Below are positions 7,369-48,169 of a DNA stretch of 57,336 bases, one piece after another. Where the stretch lies: NCBI GenBank assembly GCA_024653965.1, contig JANLGW010000072.1, positions 1 to 57,336 on the forward strand. The letters are read 5' to 3'. Positions within the stretch are counted from its first letter, which is position 1. Each line of letters begins with the position of its first letter. This DNA comes from Rhodospirillales bacterium. Lineage in GTDB: Bacteria > Pseudomonadota > Alphaproteobacteria > Rhodospirillales > Magnetovibrionaceae. A program made the translations under genes and the position numbers. A model generated the notes under the pieces. It was given only the letters and a program-made list of their open reading frames with translations. It did no database searches and was not told where the DNA came from.

Positions 7369-7510
7369 CAGGCAGAGTGCCTACTCCTTCCTTTCGGCAA
7401 CCAGCCCCGCGGTTCGTCCTTGACCAGCGTCAACCCGCAAAACTCCATTTCCGGGTAAGCTGATTTCAAAATAAAGCGATGGGTATCAAGAAAGGAAAGC
7501 TCGTGAAGTT
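7369..7510 (+). repeat. Truncated copy of bacteriohemerythrin upstream region (direct repeat, left copy)
   Basis: This stretch matches 37819-38026 in the same orientation with only a few mismatches, apart from about 65 bp missing after CCCCGCGG. It includes the region before the bacteriohemerythrin gene and its first codons (ATG at 7479, probable GTG at 7503). The match ends abruptly at 7510, where an IS-like sequence begins. It is the left member of a pair flanking about 30 kb and holds no functional gene. Confidence 0.85.
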
Positions 7511-22606: not shown

Positions 22607-25258
22607 TTAGTGACCGCCGGGAAGCGGCAGATTACTCCAGTCGATATCCACCTCCGGGTGGTTTTTGCGATGCATATCCCCCGTATAGGTGTAACGCAGG
22701 GTTTCCTTGTAATCCGCCATGGCGACCTCACGGTCATACTGGGAGTCACCATATTTGTCATTGGCTTCGGCCTTGGTCACCGTAACAGTGGTGTCAAACC
22801 AACCCTGAGAGCCACCAATGGGGTCAACCGCCAAGCGGATGATCGGATTGGGGTGAACACCCTTGTCATCCCACCACACGTTATTGGTCACGTCGGGATC
22901 GCCACCCAGCGCCCACTCGGAATCGGGTTCCTTGTGCTTGAGCTGAGCCAAACGACCATAGGCACTGTGACCGCAAGCCGTAGAGATCGCCACCACGTCC
23001 GGATGGATACCTTCGGTGACATGCGCACGGGTCACGATGTAACCGAGCTTGGAGGTCACGCGCACCAAATCGCCGTCCGCAATTTCACGCTTGGCCGCCG
23101 TGTTCGGGCTGATCCACATCGGGTTTTTGTGATATAGCTCAGCCAAGTACTTCAACGAAGCGGTGCGGCTTTGCGTATGCACGTTGACCTTGTAAGTCAC
23201 CAGCACCAGTTCATCAGCGCCCTTATCCCGAGAAGCCAGCCGCTTGTAGACCGGCATCGGGTTGAAGCCATACTTCTTATAGCTTTCCTTAAAGATTTCG
23301 ATCTTACCCGAGGGCGTGCCGAAACCGGTATAGTTCACGCCATTAACCTGAACGCCAATGGTCTTGCCGTTTTTATGGATCGTGCCTTTTTCGTCAATCT
23401 CGGCACCTTCCATGTCGGCATCAGAAACTTTCCCCTTATAAAGATTGTACTCTGGCTCGACTTCATTACCGTTGCCGTCGACGATCTTGGCAGTCTCCTT
23501 ATCGACCTTGCCATAGATCGGCCAAACGCCTTTTTTCTTCAGGAAGTCGTAACCGCCATCCTTCTGAAGTTTTGCGTTGGCGTCGAAGTGCGAACGCACC
23601 CAATCCTCAGGACTCTTGAAGTTGAAATACTTCTTGATGTCTAGAGCGCCGTCGGCGTCAACCTTATGGATAACATCCACCAAAGTCTGACGGAATTCTT
23701 GGGTGTTGCCCAAGGGCTTAACCACCGCCTGGCGGATCGACAGGCAAGGATACAGACCGCCCGGCATGGATTCCGGATCGTGGCGCTCAAGATACGTCAC
23801 ATCGGGAATGATCAGATCGGACAGTTCCGTCGTTTCCGACATATAAGGGCTGAATGACACTAGGAACGGAACCAGCTTCTCGTCTTTCAGGAAATCCGCC
23901 CATATACCCGAAGATGGATAGGTGTACACGGGGTTGTCATAGTACGTCATCCATACCGAGACCTTGGCCTCGCCATCCATGACCATATAAGGTGCATGGG
24001 TGGAAACGTGGTGTGATGCCAAAGGATAAAGCGGCGGAGCGGCAATAGCGCTCGGTGCCTTCGCCTTAGGCGGAACGGGCGAGGGCTGATCCCAACCCAT
24101 GCCACGCGGCAGACAATAACCGCCCTTCTTTTCCACGTTACCGGTGATAATCGGCAGCAACATGATCGATGCTTCCTGATAGGAACCATAAACGTGCTTG
24201 CACGGCCCACGGTAAGAAAACACCGTCGCCGGCTTCACGCCAGCAAATTCCCGCGCAACGCGACGGATGTCGCTGGCCGCAATGCCCGACTCGCCTTCGG
24301 CGAATTCCGGTGTGTACGGCTTCAAGTGCTCGATCAGCCCCTCGGCAGTGACGTTGGTCCAGTCACGAATGAAATCGGCGTCATATAGACCTTCGTTCAT
24401 AATGACATGAGCCATAGCAAGTGCCACCACGCCGTCCGTACCCGGATAGGGCGCGAACCATTCGTCGGCATAGCCCGAGGTATTAGACAAACGCACGTCG
24501 AACGAAACCAACTTGGCCTTGTTACCGACCACGCCGTCCACCAAACGTTGTGCGTTCGGGTTCATGAAGTACGCCGTTTCCAAAATATTGGAACCAAAAT
24601 TCAAGATGTACTTCGTATTGGCCCAGTCGCAGGACTCGATGTCCGGTCCCCAAGTCGGCTCCATCCCCACTTTTTTCGAGGATTCGCAGACGTTGGTGTG
24701 ATTGAGCAAGGCGCTGGAACCGAGCGCGCTCACGAAGCGTTTCACTGCTCCGCCGGAACGGTCGCGGCCATACTTGAATACGATTTCGTTCAGGATGGAG
24801 GGATCGCCTTCCTTCCTGGAACGGTCGATCACCGCACGCAGCTTTTCCGCCAACATGGCCGTCGCTTCATCGTAGGAAATACGCTTCCACTTGCCTTCAC
24901 CGCGAGCGCCGGTACGCACCAACGGAGTCATGATGCGATCAGGATCGTAGATGTGCAGGAAACCGGAATTGCCCTTAGCGCACAACTTACCGCGCGTATT
25001 GGGGTGATCCATATTACCTTCGAGCTTCACCACACGGCCGTTCTCGACATGGGCGACACCACCATCTTCGATGTTACAGGCTAGGCAGGTATAGGGAACG
25101 GTTTCCAATTTCGCGCCGTCGACCGACGAGTAATCGGTGCCGCCCAAATCCTGCTCCATGGCGACCAGTCGACTGCTTTGCAGAGACGCGGCCACCGTGG
25201 CGGCAGTACCCCCAAGCTTCATGAAGCTGCGGCGGCTTACTTTAAATTGCTTATTCAT
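22607..25258 (-). CDS. Molybdopterin oxidoreductase catalytic subunit (PsrA/PhsA-like), Tat-exported
   Basis: This 883-residue enzyme belongs to the DMSO-reductase superfamily. It has a Tat signal (SRRSFMKLGG) and a Fe-S region CLAC (residues 58-61) that ends in RGKLCAKG (C93). The usual third cysteine is missing: the position about four residues after C61 is Asp65 (CNIEDGG). A probable Mo ligand Cys191 follows (HTNVCESSKK). The C-terminal molybdopterin-binding domain is present (NPMWISPNTAAKREIADGDLV and later). It should reduce or oxidise a periplasmic substrate and exchange electrons with the psrB/psrC-like subunits. Thiosulfate, polysulfide or tetrathionate are typical for the group, but arsenic or selenium oxyanions cannot be excluded. 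Confidence 0.88.
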   Translation of the reverse strand: MNKQFKVSRRSFMKLGGTAATVAASLQSSRLVAMEQDLGGTDYSSVDGAKLETVPYTCLACNIEDGGVAHVENGRVVKLEGNMDHPNTRGKLCAKGNSGFLHIYDPDRIMTPLVRTGARGEGKWKRISYDEATAMLAEKLRAVIDRSRKEGDPSILNEIVFKYGRDRSGGAVKRFVSALGSSALLNHTNVCESSKKVGMEPTWGPDIESCDWANTKYILNFGSNILETAYFMNPNAQRLVDGVVGNKAKLVSFDVRLSNTSGYADEWFAPYPGTDGVVALAMAHVIMNEGLYDADFIRDWTNVTAEGLIEHLKPYTPEFAEGESGIAASDIRRVAREFAGVKPATVFSYRGPCKHVYGSYQEASIMLLPIITGNVEKKGGYCLPRGMGWDQPSPVPPKAKAPSAIAAPPLYPLASHHVSTHAPYMVMDGEAKVSVWMTYYDNPVYTYPSSGIWADFLKDEKLVPFLVSFSPYMSETTELSDLIIPDVTYLERHDPESMPGGLYPCLSIRQAVVKPLGNTQEFRQTLVDVIHKVDADGALDIKKYFNFKSPEDWVRSHFDANAKLQKDGGYDFLKKKGVWPIYGKVDKETAKIVDGNGNEVEPEYNLYKGKVSDADMEGAEIDEKGTIHKNGKTIGVQVNGVNYTGFGTPSGKIEIFKESYKKYGFNPMPVYKRLASRDKGADELVLVTYKVNVHTQSRTASLKYLAELYHKNPMWISPNTAAKREIADGDLVRVTSKLGYIVTRAHVTEGIHPDVVAISTACGHSAYGRLAQLKHKEPDSEWALGGDPDVTNNVWWDDKGVHPNPIIRLAVDPIGGSQGWFDTTVTVTKAEANDKYGDSQYDREVAMADYKETLRYTYTGDMHRKNHPEVDIDWSNLPLPGGH

Positions 25259-25279
25259 CTGCTGACCTCCCCCTGGGCT

Positions 25280-26155
25280 TCAGTAGTAAATCTGGGTCAA
25301 TTGCCCAGCATAGAGAAGAACTTCGCGGAACGTGTAGGCACCAACGGAACCTGCCACACCGGCGACGGTGACAAACAAAGGGTTGGTCGAGAGCGCAGGC
25401 AAGGTCAAAATAACCAGCGGAACCAGCGTTCCCACCACAAAGGTCAGCAGCCAGAACCGGACGCCAAACTCTGCATTAATGATCTGCCACGCCTGCAATT
25501 CTTCCTCGGTGCCGTACCAAAGGGTGATAACTTCACCTAAGAACAGCCAAAACGTGACCCCAACCGAAGCAAATAGAATAATTCGGGTGAGACGGGTCAT
25601 ATCATTGTTCATACCGCCCGTCGCCATGCCGAGCACCGACACAAGAGCCATGCCAGAGGTGACCGAAAGAACAACAAACAGAACCGGAATGGTCGGATTG
25701 CTCCACAATTCACGGGATTGATGAACCATAAGATCAAGCCCCGTGTAGAGCGGCATACTAAGGGCCAGCAATGACCCTAAAATGCCCGACCATTTCATCA
25801 TCTGGTCATTGTCTTGCATCTTGCCCCAACCGAAACCGACGATACACACGCCGAACAGAGGCAGAAACAAAGAACCCCACGACAACGGCGAAGTCCAGTG
25901 GAAGTAAATGATCGGATACAAGAAACGTTCCGGCATTCCAAGATCGGAGATCAACAGCGGACCGCAAATGATCAACAGCAGCAACGAAACAACCAGTCCA
26001 GTTTTCTGCGAAGACTCGAACGGTTGCGCAACCTTACCAAACACCACAGGCGCAGCAGATACGACGAAAACCATACTCGCCGTGCCGATCAAGAAGAAGT
26101 ACAGCGCCAACTGCCAAGGCCAAGGCGCAACGTTAAATGGCATATACTCAAACAT
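25280..26155 (-). CDS. NrfD/PsrC-family membrane quinol-interacting subunit
   Basis: The 291-residue protein has eight or nine membrane segments and matches the NrfD/PsrC family: WPWQLALYFFLIGTASM, a LGMPERFLYPI loop and EFGVRFWLLTFVVG. It anchors the enzyme and exchanges electrons with quinone. It starts behind GGGAGGGAG and lies between the psrB-like and psrA-like genes, which gives the order B-C-A. Confidence 0.9.
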   Translation of the reverse strand: MFEYMPFNVAPWPWQLALYFFLIGTASMVFVVSAAPVVFGKVAQPFESSQKTGLVVSLLLLIICGPLLISDLGMPERFLYPIIYFHWTSPLSWGSLFLPLFGVCIVGFGWGKMQDNDQMMKWSGILGSLLALSMPLYTGLDLMVHQSRELWSNPTIPVLFVVLSVTSGMALVSVLGMATGGMNNDMTRLTRIILFASVGVTFWLFLGEVITLWYGTEEELQAWQIINAEFGVRFWLLTFVVGTLVPLVILTLPALSTNPLFVTVAGVAGSVGAYTFREVLLYAGQLTQIYY

Positions 26156-26170
26156 GAGAAACTCCCTCCC

Positions 26171-26893
26171 TCAAAGGACACCAGCATAAAATTTGCTGCC
26201 ATTGTTGTGACGGTAGAAAGCTTCTGCGTCACTCTTAGCTGCTGCCGAAGTTGGCGTAGCAAGCACCTGATCAACAATGGTGCGGTCCGGCTTAATGTAA
26301 TAGACCTGAGGTTTCGTACCCTTGTCCGCCTTCAAAACGGTGACCGTCTGAGTGGCGACAAGGCGCGCGACTTCGCTGGTCGTATCGTTGATATCGCCAA
26401 AAATGCGGGCGCGGCCAAGACAGGTCTGTACGCACGCAGGCACTAGGCCTTTTTCAACGCGATGCTGACAGAACGTGCACTTGTCAACCACGCCGCCGAT
26501 CTTCACGCGGCTGCGGTTGTTGGGCAGGACATGGCGAGCGTTGTAGGGGCACGCCGCGATGCAGGTGCGGCAAGAGATGCAACGCTCGTAGCGCTGCAGA
26601 ACGAAACCGTCCTCATGCTTGTACGTCGCCTCGGTCGGGCAATTTCTGACGCACGGCGGATTGTCGCAATGATTGCACAACCGTGGCATAAAATGCTTTT
26701 TAACCTTGGGATATACCCCCGTATCACTCACCTTAACCGTAGTGCGCCATACGCCGAGCGGAACGTCGAATTCCGCCTTATCCGCGCAGACGCACGCCAT
26801 GCAGCCAATGCAGCGGCGCAGGTCGATTACCATCGCCCAACGCTTTTTGCCAGGCACGCCGAACGATGGTTCTGCCTGTAATCCGACAGCCAT
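26171..26893 (-). CDS. Four-cluster Fe-S electron-transfer subunit (PsrB/DmsB-like)
   Basis: This 240-residue protein carries 16 or more cysteines in the four-cluster arrangement of DmsB/PsrB: CIGCMACVCAD, CNHCDNPPCVRNCP, CISCRTCIAACP and CTFCQHRVEKGLVPAC. No signal peptide is visible, so it would be exported with the Tat-signalled catalytic subunit. It moves electrons between the membrane subunit and the molybdenum site. The ATG at 26893 follows GGGAGG. It is the first gene behind a consensus sigma-54 promoter. Confidence 0.92.
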   Translation of the reverse strand: MAVGLQAEPSFGVPGKKRWAMVIDLRRCIGCMACVCADKAEFDVPLGVWRTTVKVSDTGVYPKVKKHFMPRLCNHCDNPPCVRNCPTEATYKHEDGFVLQRYERCISCRTCIAACPYNARHVLPNNRSRVKIGGVVDKCTFCQHRVEKGLVPACVQTCLGRARIFGDINDTTSEVARLVATQTVTVLKADKGTKPQVYYIKPDRTIVDQVLATPTSAAAKSDAEAFYRHNNGSKFYAGVL

Positions 26894-27001
26894 GTAATGC
26901 CTCCCTCTTGTCAGTATCGGCCGCATTAACGCAAGCGGTCGAATTCCCCGTGATCCATACGCCCCAGACCCATTACGGGCGGAACATTCCCACTGGTAAG
27001 A

Positions 27002-37818: not shown

Positions 37819-38026
37819 CAGGCAGAATGCCTACTCCTTCCTTTCGGCAATCAGCCCCGCGGCTTCGATCATGTTTGATCTCAAACAATGAATCCTGAGC
37901 CTAAGCAGCGCTGATATCCCCTTCGCAGTTCGTCCTTGACCAACGTCAACCCGCAAAACTCCATTTCCGGATAAGCTGATTTCAAAATAAAGCGATGGGT
38001 ATCAAGAAAGGAAAGCTCGTGAAGTT
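37819..38026 (+). repeat. Direct repeat, right copy (bacteriohemerythrin upstream region)
   Basis: This is the full-length counterpart of 7369-7510. It covers the upstream region and first codons of the bacteriohemerythrin gene and is about 65 bp longer inside. On the minus strand it ends an open frame MIEAAGLIAERKE with a stop, possibly a gene remnant. A palindrome GTTTGA-GA-TCAAAC (about 37872-37886) is present only in this copy. Confidence 0.85.
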
Positions 38027-38416: not shown

Positions 38417-39154
38417 CTATTTCACAAAAAAACCGCTGCCGTCTTCGTTAAAGCCGACCACCAAATTCTGCGCGCCCGTTAACTCAACGGCCTGGCTGAG
38501 TTTGTGGGTGAAATCACTTATTGGGCCTGCATCGTTCATACGCACCATCAAGGTGTGCGCGCCCACAGGCACGCGAAATTTTTCATAAAAACTCGATGAA
38601 CCATCATTGTGCAAGCCCGCAGCGGCGGCCTCGCCCGCAAACACCACACGACCATCCAACGTCAACTCGATCGTGATCGGCCAACGCTCGCGCGCGCACT
38701 CCAGCTTCGCACGCATATTGGGGGCCAGCTTTGCCAGCTCTTCGCGCGTGCGGGTGTGACACTCTTCGACCCGTTTACCGGGATGGCTGAGGCTCAACTT
38801 GATCTGCGCCGTGTCCGGTTCGCTATAACGATAGCCGGGCCATGCGGAATACAGCCCCAAAATCGAGGCAAAAGCTGCATAAAAAACAGCCTGCGCCACC
38901 CAATGTTTTGACGATGCCGTCGCCAAATGTTCAGCGCGGGCATAATAACCAGCCTTGCTTTCGCGTCGTTTGGTGATGCGATCTGCGTGTTCGCGTTCCA
39001 GGCGGCGCTGCTCTTTATATTCGGGTGGCGTATAGAAAATATTTTTCAATCCGAAGTTCCACAACACCGCGAAAAACACTGGCCCAAAAAACAGTACCGG
39101 CGCCAGATAGAACCACAGCATGTTATCGGGCGAGATGTTAAAGAGGCTAAACAT
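38417..39154 (-). CDS. Membrane protein of unknown function, linked to cytochrome b/Fe-S fusion
   Basis: I do not recognise this 245-residue protein. It has an N-terminal membrane segment (MLWFYLAPVLFFGPVFFAVLW), a charged loop and a second membrane segment (about 90-108), then a periplasmic beta-rich domain of about 130 residues with two Cys (ECHTRT and LECARE). Its ATG overlaps the stop of the upstream fusion gene, so it is probably made together with that protein. Confidence 0.75.
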   Translation of the reverse strand: MFSLFNISPDNMLWFYLAPVLFFGPVFFAVLWNFGLKNIFYTPPEYKEQRRLEREHADRITKRRESKAGYYARAEHLATASSKHWVAQAVFYAAFASILGLYSAWPGYRYSEPDTAQIKLSLSHPGKRVEECHTRTREELAKLAPNMRAKLECARERWPITIELTLDGRVVFAGEAAAAGLHNDGSSSFYEKFRVPVGAHTLMVRMNDAGPISDFTHKLSQAVELTGAQNLVVGFNEDGSGFFVK

Positions 39155-40679
39155 CCTTGGCCTCCTCTGTATTCAATGCCTTCAGATCGTCTTGAAAGCT
39201 CACTGCGGCGGCTTGCAGTTCTTCGGCTTCGATATGTGATGCCCAAAAGGTGCGCACCCGCTCGCGCGGCACGCGTTTGCGCAAATACGGATCACGCCGT
39301 CCATCCAGGCGGTCTTGCATCCACGCCACGCCGTAACGGAATCGGCAGCCGCATTCCGGACACCCGGCGATCATCACGCCACCCGCACCCTGGTCTACCA
39401 TGTAATCGATGAACGATGGCGGCAGCATGGAAACGCACGGCAGTCGCACCGCCGCCGCACCCTGCAACGTCAAATCCTGAACCTTCGGGCCGTGCTCGCA
39501 GCCCACCACAACCACGCCACCCGGCGCTTTGGCCATCGCTTCGTCCACCAAGGTACGCATGCGCTTGATGTCCAAATGCGGCAGATCAATCCCAGTGACC
39601 AATTCCTCCACGCTGCGAAAGGGGCTGGCGACCGGACACGCGCCAACACAAATGCCACAGCGCGTACAGTTCGCCGCGTTCACTTCGGCTTGTTGGCTAT
39701 AGGGCAGGCCATCGGTACGTGGCATCATGGTGATGGCGCCGTAGGGACAATCCGCATAACAGCGCCCGCAGCCATTGCAATGATCCAACGCCACCACCGG
39801 CGCCGCAGGGAGCTTCACCGGCGGCAGCCACGGCAGTACCGCCAAAAACAGCGATCCACCAATCGCCAGCGCCCACAGCGCCAAACCGCCCCAGGCATCG
39901 AATACCGGATAAAACAGCATGAAAAACCAATCGAGGTTCAGTTCCTGCGAGATCATGCTTAAGTCTGCCGGGCCATGGCTGATGGCGGGCTTAATCAGCG
40001 ACAACACCACCAGCATCGCCGACAGACCGATGGCAACACCGCGCGGCGGGTTGATCTTGGGCTGACTGACGCGGATCACGTGAATCCACATCGCAAACAG
40101 CAAAAACAACGGCACAAAGATATGAATGAACACCAGCAGCGTGAAGAACCGGTCGGTCATTGACCCTTGGGAGAGAAAATTGTTCGCCACCGGTTCACCG
40201 AAAATACCCAGCGCATCAAACCATTCCATGGAACCCAGCGCCACATACTGCGCCAGTTCATCCCACACTAGCCAATAGCCCGACAGACCCGATGCATACA
40301 GCAGCCAGATCACCGGAACGCCCGTAAACCACGCATACCAACGCACCCCGCGATAGCGGTCGAACGACCACTCGCGGATCAAATGCAGCGCCATCATCAA
40401 CACCATGCCGTCGGATGAATAGCGATGCAGGCTGCGCATCACACCTGCGAAGTACCACTGGTCGTTGCTCATGTATTCGACCGAACGGTAAGCGCCGTTC
40501 ACCGAAGTTTCAAAAAAGATATAAATGATGATGCCCGTGGCCGCCGCGATCCAAAAAAAGTAGAACGCGACCGTGCCCAACTGGCGCATCGGATTCCACT
40601 CCGGCCCGAAAAATCGGTCAAAGAATTTTTCGCTACGCAAGAACGCGATCTGCAGGGGGGAACGCAAACGATTTAGCAC
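39147..40679 (-). CDS. Cytochrome b / [4Fe-4S] / MvhD-like fusion protein
   Basis: The 510-residue protein joins three parts. Residues 1-290 are a cytochrome b6-type membrane domain with SLHRYSSDGMVLMMALHLIREW giving heme histidines. Residues 300-350 carry two [4Fe-4S] motifs, CNGCGRCYADCP and CTRCGICVGACP. Residues 380-470 resemble MvhD (VVGCEHG, LPCVSMLPP, AGCPECGC), a partner of heterodisulfide reductase in methanogens. It could move electrons from a cytoplasmic donor to quinone or to the oxidase. The start is a GTG at 40679 behind AAAGGG. It lies between the SenC gene and the 38417 gene. Confidence 0.85.
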   Translation of the reverse strand: MLNRLRSPLQIAFLRSEKFFDRFFGPEWNPMRQLGTVAFYFFWIAAATGIIIYIFFETSVNGAYRSVEYMSNDQWYFAGVMRSLHRYSSDGMVLMMALHLIREWSFDRYRGVRWYAWFTGVPVIWLLYASGLSGYWLVWDELAQYVALGSMEWFDALGIFGEPVANNFLSQGSMTDRFFTLLVFIHIFVPLFLLFAMWIHVIRVSQPKINPPRGVAIGLSAMLVVLSLIKPAISHGPADLSMISQELNLDWFFMLFYPVFDAWGGLALWALAIGGSLFLAVLPWLPPVKLPAAPVVALDHCNGCGRCYADCPYGAITMMPRTDGLPYSQQAEVNAANCTRCGICVGACPVASPFRSVEELVTGIDLPHLDIKRMRTLVDEAMAKAPGGVVVVGCEHGPKVQDLTLQGAAAVRLPCVSMLPPSFIDYMVDQGAGGVMIAGCPECGCRFRYGVAWMQDRLDGRRDPYLRKRVPRERVRTFWASHIEAEELQAAAVSFQDDLKALNTEEAKDV

Positions 40680-40706
40680 GACGACCCTTTCGTCAGTTTT
40701 TTTACA

Positions 40707-41591
40707 TCATGTTTTTATGGGTAATGCCGGTTTCTTCGCCGTCCGGCGATTTTTCCACCACCAATTTCCGATGAACGTCATCATCGCCAAGATAATGGTT
40801 CCACCAACGGCCAGACGAAAGAAAATCGCATATTCAAACCGGTATTGGTCCGTTGCCGGATCGTAAATGGTACAGAACAGTCGCACCTTGTTGAGCAAGT
40901 CATCCAGGCTTGCAAACGGAGTGGTGGTACCAAACACCAGATTCTTCAAAGGCTCGACAAAATGCGGAGTCTGAAACGTCTCGCCATAGATATGGCGGTA
41001 TACTTTACCATCGCCGTCTAAGATGGTGGTCTGGGTCAAATGATCGAAGCCCTTAGGGCTTTCAAAAAATTGGAACCCGATATCTTCGCTGAGCGAGAGG
41101 ATGGAAGGCAAATCGCCACTGAGAAACCGCCAATGATCACTGACCGTCACACCGTACTTGCGCGCAAAACTTTGCATGCGCACGGGGTTGTCGTCCGCAG
41201 CATCAAAACCGATGGTGATGATATTATACGCATCGTCGCCCAAGGCGTCGCGGGCGATGGCATCCACGCCTTCGAGCGTCGACGTAATGACCGGGCAAAC
41301 GTCCGCGCAACTGGAATAAATCATCGAAATGACCAGGGGCTTGCCTCGATAATCTGACAGACGCACCCGCTGACCACGCGTGTCGCGAAAGATATAGTCG
41401 CCGACTTGCCGACCGAGGACGGCCTGACTAATCGCCAGCGCCTTTGCCTCATCAATGGGGGATCGGCCTGTTGGATCGGTGTTGGATAGGGTTGGGGCGG
41501 CAGTTTGGGAATGCGCAGTGGCGGCCGCGAATGAAAACACCGCACCCGCCACGCAGGAAACCCAAACTCTGTTTAGCCTTACCAAATTCAT
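40707..41591 (-). CDS. senC: SCO1/SenC copper chaperone
   Basis: The protein (294 residues) has a signal peptide (MNLVRLNRVWVSCVAGAVFSF in part) and a thioredoxin-like SCO domain with the copper-binding CADVCP and a downstream His (GFDHLTQ). A C-terminal membrane segment (AIFFRLAVGGTIILAMMTF) is unusual for SCO proteins. It delivers copper to the CuA site of subunit II, encoded in the same unit. SenC is also part of the norSY-senC set of ammonia oxidisers. The ATG at 41591 follows GGGGA. Confidence 0.9.
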   Translation of the reverse strand: MNLVRLNRVWVSCVAGAVFSFAAATAHSQTAAPTLSNTDPTGRSPIDEAKALAISQAVLGRQVGDYIFRDTRGQRVRLSDYRGKPLVISMIYSSCADVCPVITSTLEGVDAIARDALGDDAYNIITIGFDAADDNPVRMQSFARKYGVTVSDHWRFLSGDLPSILSLSEDIGFQFFESPKGFDHLTQTTILDGDGKVYRHIYGETFQTPHFVEPLKNLVFGTTTPFASLDDLLNKVRLFCTIYDPATDQYRFEYAIFFRLAVGGTIILAMMTFIGNWWWKNRRTAKKPALPIKT

Positions 41592-41657
41592 CGTTTTTCC
41601 CCTGGCCCACATCATCGCCGAAGGAATGGAGGGGCCCGAAGAGATGGAGGGGAAAGA

Positions 41658-41692
41658 GGCGGATACCTTTCGTGGGCTTGCCGGTATCCGCC
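41658..41692 (-). other. Stable hairpin between oxidase subunit I and senC
   Basis: GGCGGATACC pairs perfectly with GGTATCCGCC on the minus strand, in the 163-bp gap between the two genes, followed by TCTTTCCCC. It may act as a weak terminator or mRNA-processing site that lowers senC relative to the oxidase subunits. Confidence 0.55.
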
Positions 41693-41754
41693 CCCCCGTG
41701 GGCACCCTTGGGAGGGGGTGCATGCGCTTAATCAGTTCCCGTATCTATTCCAGA

Positions 41755-43434
41755 TCAGCTCAGTCCCCAGACGTCGGACAAATATTTCCAGTTGACGAAG
41801 TAATAGAGCACAAAGGCGGTCAGAAACACCAAGGCCAGCACAAACGTGCCGGGCACCGCCATGGTTCCCGCAGAGCCGTAAGTGGTCGCAGCGCCGCCGA
41901 TATTCGGCACTTCGGCCGCAGCAGCCTTGGGCTGTTTGGCTTTACCAAAGAACACCGTGCCAACCATGTTGAGGATGAAAATCGCCCCGCCAACACCGCC
42001 AATCAAAGCGGCAATGCCGTTCAGCCCCATCATCATATAAGCGGCGGCCGGGAACTCATGCACCATCGCCGCATCGGCAAAGGATATATCCCAATGGCGG
42101 CGCGGAACACCCAACGTACCGGCCCCCATCATGAACACCGATGCCAGCCCCATGCCCAGCCCGAACAGATAGGGCTGCCATTTGGCGAGACCGGGGAACA
42201 TCAGTTCTTTCTGCCACAGCGTCGGCACCAGCCAGTAGCTCATGGCCATGAACGCCAACGTCGTACCCACCACCACGGTGCCATGGAAATGACCCGGGGT
42301 GTACATGGTGTTATGGGTGATGATGTTGAGCTGTTCCGTGCCCATCATAACGCCGGTGATGCCGCCCAAGAAGCCGAACAAGACGAGCGACAGCGCAAAC
42401 CCGGAAAACACCGGATTGCCCCATGGCGCCTTGCGCAGCCATTCAAACAGTCCTTTATTGAAGCCTCGCTTGCGTTGTGCGGCTTCGACCGCGCCAGGAA
42501 CCGTCAAGCCGTGGATCATCGAACCCAAAACCGCCAGATACATGGCATACGAGGTGTTGAAGATTTTCCATTCCGAACTTAGGCCTGGGTCCACCAACAA
42601 ATGGTGAGCCGACGCCAGTTGCAAGAACAGAATGTAAAACAAAAACGCCGTACGGCTGACTTTTTCCGACAGTGGGCTCGCATTGAACAAGATCGCCGCA
42701 ATGGCGTACCAGCACGCGATTTGCGCTGCAACGTTGACCTGCTGGGACGAGTGCCCCATGGCCCACCACACAACACGATACATCAGGCCATCGATCGAAC
42801 CGATGAAACCCATCGACCAAAACAGCGTCGGCACCAAAATCACCGCCCCAGACAGGATGGTAAACACGGCAATGATCGCCGCCGTCATGGCACCGAACGT
42901 CACCAGCGGCATCGACCCTTCATAGGTATTATCGCGTTTGGCGATATAGAGGGTGGCGAAAAACACCACGCACCCCAACAACGCGCCCACCGCAAATAAG
43001 ATGATGCCGAGGTAAAAATCAGGTGCCGCCATCATCGGAACGTAGGACGTAAACATCACGCTGGAATCCCCACGCAGCACCGCCACGTTGGTCATAATCG
43101 CGCCGACCAGCATAAGGATATATTGCGCCCAAGCGATCTTAGGAAGCGCCAAGCGACTCTTCAACAAAATCGACGAGGTGAAATAAAGTAGCGCCATTTC
43201 GAAATAAATGCACCAGACCAACAACACGTCGAACCCATGCGCGGTTAATGCTAGATAAAAGTCATCCGCGCCCAAAAGATGCACAGCAGGCCAGCGTGTG
43301 AGCGCCACCGCAAGGCCGAATAGCCCGCCAACCAACAGGAATACAACCGCCGTAACGGCGTTCCACTTGATCAGCTTGTCGGCGTTGAGGTCGATTGCGA
43401 ACCCGGTGTCCGGGCAAGTCCTAAACTGAGCCAT
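41755..43434 (-). CDS. norS: Heme-copper oxidase subunit I, NO-reductase-like (sNOR type)
   Basis: The 559-residue protein has about 12 membrane segments and the heme-copper ligands: LTAHGFDVLLVW (low-spin heme), AHHLLVD (CuB) and GHFHGTVVVG (both hemes). The CuB His region reads WWAMGHSSQQVNVAAQ, so the HPEVY tyrosine of oxygen-reducing enzymes is absent. This matches non-canonical NO reductases, and the order subunit II, I, senC resembles norY, norS, senC. Nearby NnrR boxes support NO. The ATG at 43434 follows GGGAGG. The alternative is a divergent oxygen reductase. Confidence 0.75.
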   Translation of the reverse strand: MAQFRTCPDTGFAIDLNADKLIKWNAVTAVVFLLVGGLFGLAVALTRWPAVHLLGADDFYLALTAHGFDVLLVWCIYFEMALLYFTSSILLKSRLALPKIAWAQYILMLVGAIMTNVAVLRGDSSVMFTSYVPMMAAPDFYLGIILFAVGALLGCVVFFATLYIAKRDNTYEGSMPLVTFGAMTAAIIAVFTILSGAVILVPTLFWSMGFIGSIDGLMYRVVWWAMGHSSQQVNVAAQIACWYAIAAILFNASPLSEKVSRTAFLFYILFLQLASAHHLLVDPGLSSEWKIFNTSYAMYLAVLGSMIHGLTVPGAVEAAQRKRGFNKGLFEWLRKAPWGNPVFSGFALSLVLFGFLGGITGVMMGTEQLNIITHNTMYTPGHFHGTVVVGTTLAFMAMSYWLVPTLWQKELMFPGLAKWQPYLFGLGMGLASVFMMGAGTLGVPRRHWDISFADAAMVHEFPAAAYMMMGLNGIAALIGGVGGAIFILNMVGTVFFGKAKQPKAAAAEVPNIGGAATTYGSAGTMAVPGTFVLALVFLTAFVLYYFVNWKYLSDVWGLS

Positions 43435-43445
43435 GACAACCTCCC

Positions 43446-43988
43446 TCACTTTTCAATCACGTGAATTTTGCCGACCATCGTATGATGGCCAATGCCGCAA
43501 AATTCGTTACAGACAACGCTGAACTCACCACTGCTGGTGGGCGTAACGGTCAGAATCATTTCGTAGCCCGGAATGATCTGGAGATTGATGTTTTCCGGCT
43601 GCAGAGAGAACCCATGCTGCCAATCAACCGACGACAGGTGCAGGCGATAGGACTGCCCTTTCTCCAACTCCAGCACCGGCCACCATTCCCACATCCGGCC
43701 CAACATATAGACATCGCTGCCCGCCGGAGGACGCACAACGGGAATGCCCGTCTCACCTTGTTCGCGAACGGTATACTTCGCGGCAAACGCCTCGGTGCGT
43801 TCGGCGAAAACTTCCGGCCTAATTTTATAAGCTTCATTGGACAGGTTTTGGTTACCCGTCATATGCCAGTAGGGCATCATAAAAAACATAACCAACGCCC
43901 ACACCAGCGCGAGCGTGACCCAGAGGACTTCCGATTTTTCAATTGGCTCGTTCCACCACACCCGTTCCTTCGGAGGAAATATCGACAT
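43446..43988 (-). CDS. norY: Heme-copper oxidase subunit II with CuA site
   Basis: This 180-residue protein has one membrane helix (LWVTLALVWALVMFFMMPYWH) and a periplasmic cupredoxin domain. The CuA ligands are complete: His in DWQHGF, then CNEFCGIGHHTM giving two Cys, His and Met. It accepts electrons from cytochrome c and passes them to subunit I. The start at 43988 follows GGGAGGG. It lies just before the subunit I gene and after the 53-residue small gene. Confidence 0.85.
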   Translation of the reverse strand: MSIFPPKERVWWNEPIEKSEVLWVTLALVWALVMFFMMPYWHMTGNQNLSNEAYKIRPEVFAERTEAFAAKYTVREQGETGIPVVRPPAGSDVYMLGRMWEWWPVLELEKGQSYRLHLSSVDWQHGFSLQPENINLQIIPGYEMILTVTPTSSGEFSVVCNEFCGIGHHTMVGKIHVIEK

Positions 43989-44002
43989 CGCTCAGCCCTC
44001 CC

Positions 44003-44164
44003 TTAAGGCGCTACGGGGATGGCGACAATTTCCATGATCCCCCAGATGATATAAATAACCGTCGGCATACCGACGCCAATAATCAGCAATAGAAACGGCG
44101 AGTCCAACAACTGCTGCATGAGCGGGACTGGCCCCTCTCCTTGCGTGCTTTTATGATCTGACAT
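44003..44164 (-). CDS. Small single-helix membrane protein (probable NO-reductase subunit)
   Basis: This 53-residue protein has one membrane helix (LLLIIGVGMPTVIYIIWGIMEI) and a short polar N terminus. The ATG at 44164 follows GGGAGGGA. It is the first gene of the oxidase unit and overlaps no other. Small single-helix subunits are common in heme-copper oxidases. I do not recognise its family. Confidence 0.75.
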   Translation of the reverse strand: MSDHKSTQGEGPVPLMQQLLDSPFLLLIIGVGMPTVIYIIWGIMEIVAIPVAP

Positions 44165-44299: not shown

Positions 44300-44313
44300 T
44301 TGACGACGGTCAA
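44300..44313. promoter_or_regulatory. NnrR/Dnr box for the NO-reductase operon
   Basis: TTGAC-GACG-GTCAA is a perfect inverted repeat of the NnrR/Dnr type. A TTTAAT -10-like element lies at 44271-44276 on the minus strand, so the box is centred near -41.5 of a start at about 44265, as expected for activation. Confidence 0.75.
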
Positions 44314-44351: not shown

Positions 44352-44365
44352 TTGACGGACGTCAA
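44352..44365. promoter_or_regulatory. NnrR/Dnr box for the HHE-domain gene
   Basis: TTGAC-GGAC-GTCAA is a second perfect inverted repeat. It is centred about 63 bp before the ATG at 44422; activation from -41.5 would start transcription near 44400. This geometry argues against the alternative start at 44365. Confidence 0.7.
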
Positions 44366-44421
44366 TGCACGATCATGTGGAAATGGCCATGCTGTGGGCG
44401 CATATTTGGGGAGATTCATTC

Positions 44422-44997
44422 ATGCTGTCCGAAAGACCACCCCGCTCGGTCTGCAATGATGAACTCGCAGAGCGGATTCCCGACAACATCCTGCGAGAAC
44501 CCATCGACTATCTTTTTGCAGATCATTGTCGACAGGCGACGCTGTGCAACGAACTCCATCATTTCGTGGCGCACTTTTTTAATGCCCCGCCCGATCCGGA
44601 CCGGGCGGCGGCGATATTGTCGTGTCTGGAAGTTGATGTGAACCTGCATATCGCAGACGAAGAATTGGATTTATTTCCACGATTACGCATGCGGGCGAGA
44701 GCGGAAGATCGTTTCTCCGAATTGCTGCGTCTATTGGATAAGGAACATGATCGCGATCGCACACTTGTCGAGGAAGTTTGTGTGGACTTAACACGCCTCG
44801 TTCAAGGCCAATCCCTCGAAGATCCGGATCGATTTTGCCGCTCCGCCAGTGCATTGGCGGCCAGCCACATCAGTCACTTGGAATGGGAAAATGCCGTCCT
44901 ATTGCCGCTGGCGCGCCTTCGTCTAACGAATGAAGACCTAAACGCCATGGGTAAAACCATGGCCGCAAGAAGATCAATACCGTATCCCGGCGATTAA
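44422..44997 (+). CDS. Hemerythrin/HHE-domain protein
   Basis: The protein (191 residues) is helical with metal-binding type residues in order: DYLFADHCR, HHFVAHFF, VNLHIADEELDLFP and SHISHLEWENAVLLP. HHE proteins bind di-iron and are often induced by nitric oxide; some repair Fe-S clusters damaged by NO (YtfE type). It is transcribed away from the NO-reductase unit, with NnrR-type boxes between them. The ATG at 44422 follows GGGGAGA. Confidence 0.82.
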   Translation: MLSERPPRSVCNDELAERIPDNILREPIDYLFADHCRQATLCNELHHFVAHFFNAPPDPDRAAAILSCLEVDVNLHIADEELDLFPRLRMRARAEDRFSELLRLLDKEHDRDRTLVEEVCVDLTRLVQGQSLEDPDRFCRSASALAASHISHLEWENAVLLPLARLRLTNEDLNAMGKTMAARRSIPYPGD

Positions 44998-45004
44998 AAA
45001 CGGT

Positions 45005-45739
45005 TCAACCGCAGCCCATAGATTTGTGTTTGATGTAATCGCGCAACGCATCGATATTTTGAATAACCACGTCGTGTCCAGAGTTGCTCACCCCAGCAGC
45101 CTTTAACTTCGCTAGGGCGCGCGAAAAAGTTTCCGGCTGCATACCGAGACGGGCGGCAATTAAAGATTTATCGTGCGGCAAAGTAAGACAAACCTCCCCC
45201 TGAACGGCATCGCACAAACTCAGCAAAAAATCCGCCAACCTTTCGGTCGAAGACAATGCCGAAAGCTGATGCACCAAGGTGATGCTTTTACGCAGATGGC
45301 GTGACATGGAACTCAGCATATTGAAGGTGAAGCTCATATTATCGTGCAATTCTCGCAACATGGCTTCTGCGCTGACCACCAGCAAACGCGTATCCGTGAT
45401 GGTCATGGAGCTAACGGGGTAAACGCGATTGTCGAAGATGGCTGCTTCAGCAAAACTTTCACCCGGAGACACCACCGAGATCACCACTTCATGGCCGTCT
45501 TCACACAAACGATAAAGCTTAATCCAGCCTTCCATAACCACAAAAAACCGCTGCGCGGGCTCGCCTTCCATGAATAGGGTAGTTTGGTCTGGATAATGGC
45601 GGATGGAACTGGTGGCCAACAGCTTGCGCAGATCGTCAGGGATGAACCCGGTAAACAAAGGAACCTTGCCCAAGCGACGGATGTCGCCGGGCGTAATGCC
45701 GGTGCGCAAGGTAAAGGCCTCTTGTTCGCGCCCCCCCAT
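45005..45739 (-). CDS. Crp/Fnr-family regulator (NnrR/Dnr type)
   Basis: This 244-residue protein has an N-terminal cyclic-nucleotide-binding-like domain (FMEGEPAQRFFVVMEGWIKL) and a C-terminal helix-turn-helix with recognition segment MQPETFSRALAKL, matching Dnr/NnrR-type proteins that bind TTGAC-N4-GTCAA. No N-terminal four-Cys cluster of Fnr is seen. It is therefore the probable activator of both boxes at 44300 and 44352. It converges with the HHE gene. Confidence 0.88.
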   Translation of the reverse strand: MGGREQEAFTLRTGITPGDIRRLGKVPLFTGFIPDDLRKLLATSSIRHYPDQTTLFMEGEPAQRFFVVMEGWIKLYRLCEDGHEVVISVVSPGESFAEAAIFDNRVYPVSSMTITDTRLLVVSAEAMLRELHDNMSFTFNMLSSMSRHLRKSITLVHQLSALSSTERLADFLLSLCDAVQGEVCLTLPHDKSLIAARLGMQPETFSRALAKLKAAGVSNSGHDVVIQNIDALRDYIKHKSMGCG

Positions 45740-45928
45740 AAAACCCCTCACTTATAGCGGTTAAAGCGTTACTCATTGCACTTTGAATATATAGGATAAA
45801 TTACCGAGTGGCGAGGTAAGATCTTTTCAAAAATATTTACCAACCTGGACTTGTCTAAATAAAGCAGACAGCGCCGTAGCCGTTAGGGGCGCTGGTCGCC
45901 ACCGTCAAGCTCAGCTTGATTGCCCAGG

Positions 45929-46966: not shown

Positions 46967-47710
46967 CTAGCGCGCTGCGCAAGGATTTTTAGCCGCGCAA
47001 GGGTTCTTGGCTGCACACGGGTTTTTCGCTGCGCAGGGATTTTTAGCCGCGCAGGGGTTTTCATCCACTTCAGGAACAAAAGTCTTTTGCAGCTCTGCCG
47101 TATAAGCCGTTAACGCAGCTAGAGTGCGCGAATCCCACGGCAATGGATCAGCGGCCATCGGCACGACCATGCAGAACTGGATCATTTCATCCAGCGCAAT
47201 GGATGTAATCCCCCCCCTATCGACAGCCATCGACACTTCATGCGGATAAGGTTTGGCAAAAGACGCCTCAAATGCACCATGATCATTATGGCAGGAGATG
47301 CATGACATACCGTTTGTGCTCAGTTTGTCGTCCGCAAATAAGGCCTCACCTTCGGCAACCAATGCCGAATGTTCTCCCGCCGCCAATTTAGTGCCTTTGG
47401 GACGGGTCACCAGCTTGGCATCGACTTTAGCGCCCGCACAAGGATTGGCGCCGCACGGATTGCAGGGGTTTTTAGCTGCGCAGGGATTTTTGGCCGCACA
47501 CGGGTTCTTGGCCGCACAGGGATTGCAGGGATTTTTCATCGCAGCCAATTGAAAAACATCAATCATCGAACGACTTTGAGCGGCTGGGTTCACCCCCCCG
47601 ATACCGGGGCTTCCTGCCAAGGCAGGGGTGGCGGCCGCGAGGATCAAACCCGCGCCAATGATCTTGGGGAAAGCCGTCCTAGGCTTGAATTTTCTGTCTA
47701 ATGGTTTCAC
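46967..47710 (-). CDS. Exported monoheme cytochrome c with NPCAAK repeats at both sides
   Basis: This 247-residue protein has a signal peptide (ending ALA), a first repeat region (about 59-93, NPCAAK and NPCNPC units), a cytochrome-like core with one CISCH heme motif (about 137) and a C-terminal region with five NPCAAK units. The repeats hold many regularly spaced cysteines, suited to binding soft metals or forming disulfides. The smaller gene at 47822 encodes the same repeat. Start is a GTG at 47710 behind GGAG. The function is unknown. Confidence 0.8.
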   Translation of the reverse strand: MKPLDRKFKPRTAFPKIIGAGLILAAATPALAGSPGIGGVNPAAQSRSMIDVFQLAAMKNPCNPCAAKNPCAAKNPCAAKNPCNPCGANPCAGAKVDAKLVTRPKGTKLAAGEHSALVAEGEALFADDKLSTNGMSCISCHNDHGAFEASFAKPYPHEVSMAVDRGGITSIALDEMIQFCMVVPMAADPLPWDSRTLAALTAYTAELQKTFVPEVDENPCAAKNPCAAKNPCAAKNPCAAKNPCAAR

Positions 47711-47821: not shown

Positions 47822-48115
47822 CTATTTGGCTGCGCAGGGATTTTTAGCCGCGCACGGGTTCTTGGCCGCACAGGGATTTTTGGCTGCACACGGGTTCTTG
47901 GCCGCACAGGGGTTTTTAGCCGCGCACGGATTTGACGCCGCGCAAGGATTCTTTGTGCATGGAGCACAGGGATTGCATGGATTTTTCACACAGTCTGCAC
48001 TTGCAACCAAAATACCCGTTTCCGCTGCCTGTGCCTGCGGCAAAACCGTCACGGCGCTCACTCCCGCCAAAAGAGCAAGGCTCAGCGCTGCAGGCTTAAA
48101 TGACATCTTCAACAT
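47822..48115 (-). CDS. Small exported cysteine-repeat protein (NPCAAK)
   Basis: The 97-residue protein has a signal peptide (ending AQA) and then almost only cysteine repeats: CVKNPCNPCAPC, then eight NPCAxx units. About a third of the mature protein is Cys, Asn and Pro in a strict six-residue period. It has no domain I recognise. The ATG at 48115 follows GGGAGGA. It may bind metal or act as a partner of the 46967 cytochrome. Confidence 0.78.
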   Translation of the reverse strand: MLKMSFKPAALSLALLAGVSAVTVLPQAQAAETGILVASADCVKNPCNPCAPCTKNPCAASNPCAAKNPCAAKNPCAAKNPCAAKNPCAAKNPCAAK

Positions 48116-48148
48116 TTTTATTCCTCCCGGTAAGTTACAGAAATTGGG

Positions 48149-48169
48149 CAATCCATAAAATATGGATTG
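48149..48169. other. Perfect hairpin in the leader of the 47822 gene
   Basis: CAATCCATA and TATGGATTG form a perfect 9-bp stem around a 3-base loop, about 35 bp before the start codon at 48115. It could affect translation or be a regulator site. No other element is clear nearby. Confidence 0.4.

Follow-up and report, generated by a model that had tools for sequence, protein, structure and literature searches.

The 57,336-nucleotide stretch of DNA analysed here (contig JANLGW010000072.1 of a Rhodospirillales bacterium, hereafter the window) carries on its minus strand, from 44164 to 38417, a compact operon for a putative nitric oxide (NO) reductase of the eNOR type and a set of associated proteins. 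In order, the genes encode a 53-residue protein, a subunit II with a CuA site, a heme-copper subunit I, the copper chaperone SenC, a fusion of cytochrome b, ferredoxin and FlpD domains, and a membrane-anchored protein that we call OrfM. The genes of subunits II and I overlap by a few bases, as do those of the fusion and OrfM, and the remaining intergenic gaps are short, making a single operon very likely. The gene order is not a matter of chance: it is found again in loci assigned to Alpha-, Beta- and Gammaproteobacteria. An earlier note on this DNA, made without database searches, had described an NO-reductase-like unit here; translation, open reading frames and Pfam searches find every feature that it listed where it had placed it.

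The first gene (44003..44164, with its ATG at 44164) is an open reading frame for a small protein with a single transmembrane segment. Its start is the end coordinate that the earlier note gave for the unit, and comparable small open reading frames hold the same position in Defluviimonas, Thermus and Thermomicrobium. Subunit II (43446..43988) falls below the Pfam COX2 cut-off (19.1 of 22 bits) and below that of NCBIfam CoxB, though with an E-value of 1.4e-11; its CuA motif, C160-x3-C164-x3-H168-x2-M171 (43476..43511), has the complete ligand set that the earlier note had recognised. Subunit I (41755..43449) scores 226 bits with COX1, against a cut-off of 34.8. SenC (40707..41723; SCO1-SenC, 46.9 bits), also correctly named before, probably starts internally at Met45 (about 41591), since most homologues align only from about residues 46–92; unlike these, one homologue (L008; L and G numbers are locus and genome labels) aligns from residue 2. 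The fusion (39147..40679, 510 residues) and OrfM (38417..39154, 245 residues) complete the operon.

A glutamine in place of the cross-linking tyrosine

In subunit I, H233-S-S-Q-Q237-V replaces the HPEVY of oxygen reductases. Alignment with eight tyrosine-type B-family sequences, which read HxxxY where the window reads HSSQQVN, puts Q237 of the HSSQQ motif (42739..42753) in the position of the cross-linking tyrosine and bears out the absence of that residue. The pattern HxxQQ was read in 121 of 121 distinct subunit I relatives of at least 450 residues, including two that escaped the pattern through one differing upstream residue and were read by eye; these sequences were gathered by similarity to the window, so that the count describes the extent of a group and not a random sample. 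Subunit II homologues, likewise picked by similarity and with identical sequences counted once, carry the CuA motif in all 120 distinct closed cases.

Within a tree of 44 subunit I rows, a 100/99 branch parts the 34 glutamine rows from the eight tyrosine-type B-family rows and two A-type rows; some branches of this tree are long, and five distant heme-copper rows (L001, L004, L174, L180 and L181) were left out of it. A grouping of subunit I within the oxygen reductases, which the earlier note would have taken as a refutation, is not what the tree gives. On the glutamine side stand proteins from Thermus plasmids and Thermomicrobium, 45–49% identical and reading HGAQQVN. The Thermus subunit I genes lie near genes for a multicopper oxidase, an Rrf2 regulator and DUF542, and one of the two also near P460; in both plasmid-borne proteins (L090 and L092) the motif GHFH reads GHFK, with lysine in a position that usually holds a heme ligand. 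The solved structures that best match subunit I are ba3-type oxidases (7deg and Thermus entries).

eNOR is a known but little-studied enzyme that converts NO to nitrous oxide (N2O) and a widespread source of the latter; its biochemically tested form comes from Rhodothermus marinus. Section 2.7.1 of PMC8756737 defines eNOR by a glutamine at the tyrosine site, and the residue at this site is given there as Asn in sNOR and CuANOR, Gln in eNOR and Asp in gNOR (Table A4 for sNOR and eNOR). By this residue, shared with all 121 relatives, the enzyme is an eNOR and not an sNOR, the label that the earlier note had leaned towards. The broader description as NO-reductase-like holds at the level of the family, through the separation from the tyrosine-type oxidases and the defining glutamine, and NO is the substrate that membership of this family would predict.

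According to the same source, putative eNOR occurs in many Alpha-, Beta-, Gamma- and Deltaproteobacteria. An alphaproteobacterial heme-copper type, 'ba3-a1', is equated with eNOR in PMC8879329, which reports NO reduction by eNOR and names the metagenome-assembled genomes (MAGs) BS150m-G9 and SI054_bin61 as carriers; the present operon is found in both (loci L136 and L130). The ba3-a1 enzymes of Magnetospirilli are described as lacking the tyrosine and accompanied by SCO genes (PMC6431628), and Paramagnetospirillum caucaseum (L160) carries the operon; another culturable carrier, Defluviimonas sp. SAOS-178_SWC, has it on a plasmid. A contig filed under a Saprospiraceae MAG (L155) holds a proteobacterial-type eNOR subunit I, 67% identical, either mis-binned or transferred.

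An sNOR encoded by norSY-senC has been described in ammonia oxidisers (PMC4940428, PMC6967387, PMC5118430). The idea that the norSY-senC-orf1 cluster of these organisms is the present operon, with orf1 as the fusion, was dropped: no subunit I match at 1e-12 appeared in 100 genomes of one ammonia-oxidiser family (recognised by ammonia monooxygenase), a search with no positive control and with weaker matches unlisted that says nothing alone.

The cytochrome b fusion and its genomic company

Pfam confirms the fusion of cytochrome b, ferredoxin and MvhD-like domains described earlier, with Cytochrome_B at residues 32–204, 4Fe-4S motifs at about 295–350 and FlpD at 409–502 (51.6 bits against a cut-off of 22.3). 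The four histidine ligands of two b hemes (H85, H99, H186 and H200) in the cytochrome b part (residues 1–290, 39810..40679) and the eight cysteines of the ferredoxin part (residues ~294–352, 39624..39800) are present in 106 of 106 distinct fusions, identical sequences being counted once. Four cysteines of the FlpD/MvhD part (residues ~389–502, 39174..39515), C394, C415, C440 and C445, are kept in 99–100% of the same set and are likely cluster ligands. Further alignments took in 20 of 62 OrfM loci and 21 of 63 fusion loci, each together with the window.

In the AlphaFold2 model of the fusion (predicted local distance difference test, pLDDT, 83.9; predicted template modelling score 0.83), the membrane part has a cytochrome b fold, with Z up to 20.2 over 249 residues at 2.7 Å. 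The C-terminal part resembles the C terminus of HdrA2 together with MvhD; the HdrA2 family NF040770 aligns with residues 292–506, below its cut-off. The quinol-site motif PEWY itself is not kept: opposite the PEWY of cytochrome b6f subunit IV the aligned fusions read xDW(F/Y), with D250 and W251 in 106 of 106 sequences, and a second motif, G134-Y-W-L-V-W-D140, varies hardly at all. Retention of these Qo-like motifs (134–140 and D250–W251) makes a quinone site towards the periplasm possible.

OrfM, the 'unknown membrane protein' of the earlier note, is indeed anchored by a transmembrane segment and without a Pfam family; a PDB sequence search gave nothing usable, and Foldseek found no match at 1e-3. 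Its AlphaFold2 model (pLDDT 86.5) has an immunoglobulin-like domain at residues 110–245, presumed periplasmic. The best VIA-align match, a domain of HGSNAT at Z 9.2, reflects a common beta-sandwich arrangement from which no function is drawn. C132 and C153 are invariant in 106 aligned OrfM sequences.

The company kept by the fusion was followed in an order-based sample of 60 genomes and a class sample of 289, few of them shared. Full-length fusions, clearly set off from weaker matches (worst 3.6e-157, next 9.7e-16 in one sample), occur in 43 distinct genomes, the window's own included. Subunit I adjoins the fusion in 37 of the other 42, once as a fragment at a contig edge, and the remaining five are cut by contig ends. 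Named genomes were also scanned by subunit I. Among its best 80 loci, SenC, the fusion with its ferredoxin–FlpD part and OrfM are all present in 61 of the 61 with more than 4.5 kb downstream; the other 19 end early, and 12 of these still show a fusion-type cytochrome b, whole or in part. The fusion thus belongs to the unit, as the earlier note had proposed. In 52 of these best 80 loci, subunit I and SenC are separated by a cyoE-type gene; neither cyoE nor ctaA was seen among the genes of the window's operon.

Across Pseudomonadota, a sample of 398 genomes contained 34 with the fusion. Its 33 loci outside the window divide into 14 with eNOR nearby (one of them divergent), three with SenC at a contig edge, five that cannot be judged and 11 without eNOR. 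These 11 break the rule, uncontradicted in the 42 order and class genomes, that fusion and eNOR are tied without exception, which we have given up. Had most genomes carried the fusion apart from the oxidase, the earlier note would have counted its proposal refuted; this is not what is seen, though 11 of the 33 phylum-sample loci lack an adjoining eNOR. The fusion/OrfM module belongs with denitrification, mostly but not always with eNOR.

Some arrangements around the fusion stand apart. In four loci of family f204 (L300, L309, L312 and L331) it occurs in tandem copies, in three of the four with a divergent heme-copper-like protein downstream. The other heme-copper matches of the window's own genome look like a CcoN, an A-family subunit and a divergent protein, L004 (G000:C145; motif GGHVLQ); roughly 1 kb separates L004 from a gene for an A-family-like oxidase. 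Homologues of L004 lie in 12 of 12 eNOR regions of Burkholderiales (L235–L246, near the fusion), in 10 of the best 80 named loci and in four of 35 phylum-sample regions; an HH pair was not seen in L004, L181 or the L235 copy.

A second version of the module came to light in 300 genomes from the order of an Aromatoleum MAG (that MAG included), taken as Burkholderiales. Subunit I matches at 1e-60 in 23 of them; 20 of the 23 have the full fusion, and 19 have a second protein matching its cytochrome b part only. Two genomes (G371 and G449) have only this second kind, and one (G345, where contigs end) has neither at 1e-40. The second kind joins a cytochrome b, 41–50% identical to the window's, to Fer2, FAD_binding_6 and NAD_binding_1 domains (Pfam, four proteins), that is, to an NAD(P)H reductase; tblastn confirmed the reductase part in 15 of the 19 Burkholderiales genomes and in L144, L159 and L332.

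In 14 of the 19 genomes, no more than 10 kb separates the NAD(P)H version from subunit I. Of 12 regions holding both eNOR and the second kind, 10 have the latter where the fusion usually stands, after SenC and before OrfM, and two have it further down; OrfM adjoins one or the other cytochrome b version in all 15 regions examined. The NAD(P)H version was found in none of 40 alphaproteobacterial regions and only in L144 and L159 among the best 80 named loci. Its occurrence in Burkholderiales indicates that the proposed electron input is exchangeable. In L239, L246 and L159, OrfM is present in two copies per operon region, one behind each kind of cytochrome b protein.

Putative regulation and neighbouring genes

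The palindrome TTGAC-N4-GTCAA has four exact matches in the window, against 0.10 expected, and none of 100 shuffles reached four. Two of them, TTGACGACGGTCAA (44300..44313) and TTGACGGACGTCAA (44352..44365), lie between the operon and a divergent gene for a hemerythrin-domain protein (44365..44997, plus strand; Hemerythrin, 44.1 bits), which shares the intergenic region; the second abuts the first base of the hemerythrin open reading frame. The other two are at 7420–7433 and 37936–37949, one of them followed after about 45 bp by a bacteriohemerythrin gene (37995), which suggests a regulon shared with the operon. Of 117 distinct loci (identical sequences counted once), 69 have the looser form TTGRY-N4-RYCAA in the 450 bp before subunit II, against six of 351 control stretches taken from inside subunit I genes, which are coding and not fully matched in base make-up. 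The FNR box TTGAT-N4-ATCAA, with two mismatches allowed, is at chance level in the window (35 found, 27.7 expected). Palindromes of this type are read by Crp/Fnr-family regulators of the NNR, DNR or FNR kind, and the candidate reader here would be the Crp/Fnr-family protein encoded at 45005..45751 on the minus strand (FtrB-like in family searches, below cut-off).

Operon-bearing genomes also tend to encode nitrite reductases. Among 60 relatives, a NirK over its cut-off or a cd1-type protein at 1e-50 (thresholds of our own setting; the cd1 type includes NirF- and NirN-like proteins) is present in 23 of 25 with the operon and 11 of 35 without it (Fisher p 3e-6, uncorrected for kinship), and a stricter NirS threshold leaves 15 of 25 and five of 35. 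In print, eNOR is placed in one operon with NirK in Ardenticatena (PMC4653789) and occurs with nirK or nirS in some Gallionellaceae (PMC10734462).

Elsewhere in the window, NPCAAK/NPC repeats abound in two proteins (46967–47710 and 47822–48151), of which the first, with an additional c-type heme motif (CISCH), could act as a redox partner or bind metal. A molybdoenzyme-like set, labelled by eye, lies at 22607–26926 (a TAT-type large subunit, an NrfD-like membrane protein and a 4Fe-4S protein).

A proposed electron supply to the enzyme

From the gene content and order, the cofactor ligands, the module exchange and the palindromes, all observed directly, we infer a direction of electron flow, a contact between module and eNOR, a topology, a role for OrfM and a regulator. 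We see an even chance that the operon encodes an eNOR-type NO reductase with its own electron-input module from the cytoplasm. Subunit II, through CuA, and subunit I, through a low-spin heme and a heme–CuB site with glutamine for the cross-linked tyrosine, would reduce NO to N2O, with copper loaded by SenC. The fusion would accept cytoplasmic electrons through its FlpD and ferredoxin clusters, or through FAD and [2Fe-2S] in the NAD(P)H version, and its two b hemes would carry them across the membrane; the last step to CuA might be direct, via quinone or via a carrier such as cytochrome c. OrfM may dock eNOR and the electron-input module, and a Crp/Fnr-type regulator would control expression. 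The best evidence that cytoplasmic donors feed the membrane part is that homologous cytochromes b bear different cytoplasmic heads, ferredoxin–FlpD in the fusion and an NAD(P)H reductase in the second version. The earlier note had guessed at such a supply through the fusion; that part of it is still a proposal, for which the NAD(P)H version is the strongest argument.

Several observations weigh against cytoplasmic input. The donor named in print for eNOR is reduced cytochrome c (PMC8879329, citing the 2021 preprint), and in five of the 19 genomes the NAD(P)H version is not near subunit I, lying 17–19 kb off in two and on another contig in three. Because of these two points we hold cytoplasmic input with less confidence and give more weight to a wider role, in which the fusion and OrfM are a general electron-supply module for periplasmic N-oxide reduction (NirS, eNOR and the cytochrome c or quinone pool) and the eNOR operon is only its usual genetic home. 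NosR or NapGH would be its functional counterparts. The 11 eNOR-less loci of the phylum sample point the same way: they hold the fusion and OrfM with no subunit I or SenC in the 4–7.7 kb upstream (the rest of these genomes was not searched), and in seven a cd1 nitrite reductase is encoded no more than about 4.5 kb away, so that periplasmic N-oxide reduction in a broader sense may be what the module serves. The neighbour in L306 matches solved cytochrome cd1 nitrite reductases (NirS) at 7.6e-264, and those in L306 and L317 combine Pfam Cytochrom_D1 with a c-type domain and match no NCBIfam family at 1e-10; low-identity cd1-type matches in other loci may be NirN- or NirF-like. Yet all 11 come from a single family, f213, three further genomes of which (G921, G925 and G947) have eNOR beside the fusion, and outside f213 the link between fusion and eNOR is very tight; we regard the general module as unlikely, though a reading to be kept in view. 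The subunit I relatives of Thermus and Thermomicrobium also count against a dedicated input, having no fusion in their annotated stretches, as does the window's own genome, which at 99.6% completeness shows no NirK or NirS model match, so that NO would come from elsewhere or the enzyme would have a protective role.

The Qo-like motifs of the cytochrome b part are a further difficulty, since they would suit quinol oxidation and a reverse flow of electrons. The site might then oxidise quinol, sending one electron to CuA and NO and the other through the b hemes to ferredoxin/FlpD or NAD+. Such bifurcation is energetically possible and would account for the retention of G134–D140, for the invariant D250–W251 aligned with the Glu-Trp of PEWY and for LPWD, kept in most of the NAD(P)H versions shown. 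PEWY itself is gone, however, the operon has neither a Rieske protein nor a cytochrome c1, reductases of the attached [2Fe-2S]/FAD kind normally oxidise NAD(P)H, and we know of no case of CuA in a Rieske-like bifurcating role; we consider the scheme improbable. Slightly less probable still is its fullest form, with the CuA protein of eNOR standing in for the Rieske protein, NO as the very strong oxidant and an NO reductase making low-potential reductant. The partners SenC and CyoE, and the ferredoxin system used by mitochondrial heme A synthase, could instead mark the fusion as a maturation factor whose electrons go into making heme A or assembling the eNOR copper site and not into turnover. 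We doubt this strongly: the window's operon shows no cyoE or ctaA, twelve invariant cofactor ligands and the swap for an NAD(P)H reductase suggest a path used in turnover, and fusions also stand beside NirS, which has neither copper nor heme A. Finally, the B-family fold would allow subunit I to be an oxygen reductase with an unusual active site, and the Crp/Fnr-type sites would also suit low-oxygen respiration; with the cross-linking tyrosine absent in 121 of 121 sequences, the separation in the tree, the linkage with nirS and nirK and the reported NO reductase activity of the family (PMC8879329), we think this highly improbable.

If eNOR does receive electrons through the frequent cytochrome b–ferredoxin/FlpD or NAD(P)H-reductase partner, bacteria may pay for NO removal from cytoplasmic reductant, bypassing the bc1 complex. 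The question of the eNOR donor becomes testable by gene removal and enzyme assays, and the naturally occurring exchange of FlpD for an NAD(P)H reductase is available for study. With the genes of the fusion and OrfM as two markers, eNOR operons could be recognised despite their frequent annotation as oxidases. The partnership also bears on genomes like the window's, in which the operon is present and no NirK or NirS match is found. Of the parts, eNOR, SenC, cytochrome b and FlpD are already known. The literature searched described neither the fusion as a frequent eNOR partner, nor the NAD(P)H variant, nor OrfM; figures and supplements lay outside its scope, and an earlier description is possible. 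Its sole match for FlpD together with nitric oxide reductase was PMC8756737, whose Table A3 lists FlpD for an open reading frame with cytochrome c (C1) and cytochrome b6, unlinked to eNOR there.

Set beside known systems, the operon shares with eNOR ('ba3-a1') the glutamine at the tyrosine site, the CuA subunit II and an SCO gene in the operon; the excerpted accounts of eNOR do not mention the fusion and OrfM genes and give cytochrome c as donor. With the sNOR of ammonia oxidisers (norSY-senC-orf1) it has in common a CuA subunit II, a B-type subunit I and a downstream senC, and differs in having Gln where sNOR has Asn (PMC8756737, Table A4). The ba3 oxygen reductases of the B family share its fold and metal ligands, whereas the window's enzyme lacks their cross-linking tyrosine. 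Cytochrome b6 and the cytochrome b of bc1 complexes resemble the fusion in four heme-ligating histidines, helix arrangement and remnant Qo motifs; the fusion has xDW(F/Y) for PEWY, an attached ferredoxin–FlpD part and an operon without Rieske or c1 genes. The HdrA2 C terminus and MvhD have the same succession of ferredoxin and FlpD, and MvhD chains match, but the fusion lacks the FAD-carrying part of HdrA and is joined instead to a cytochrome b.

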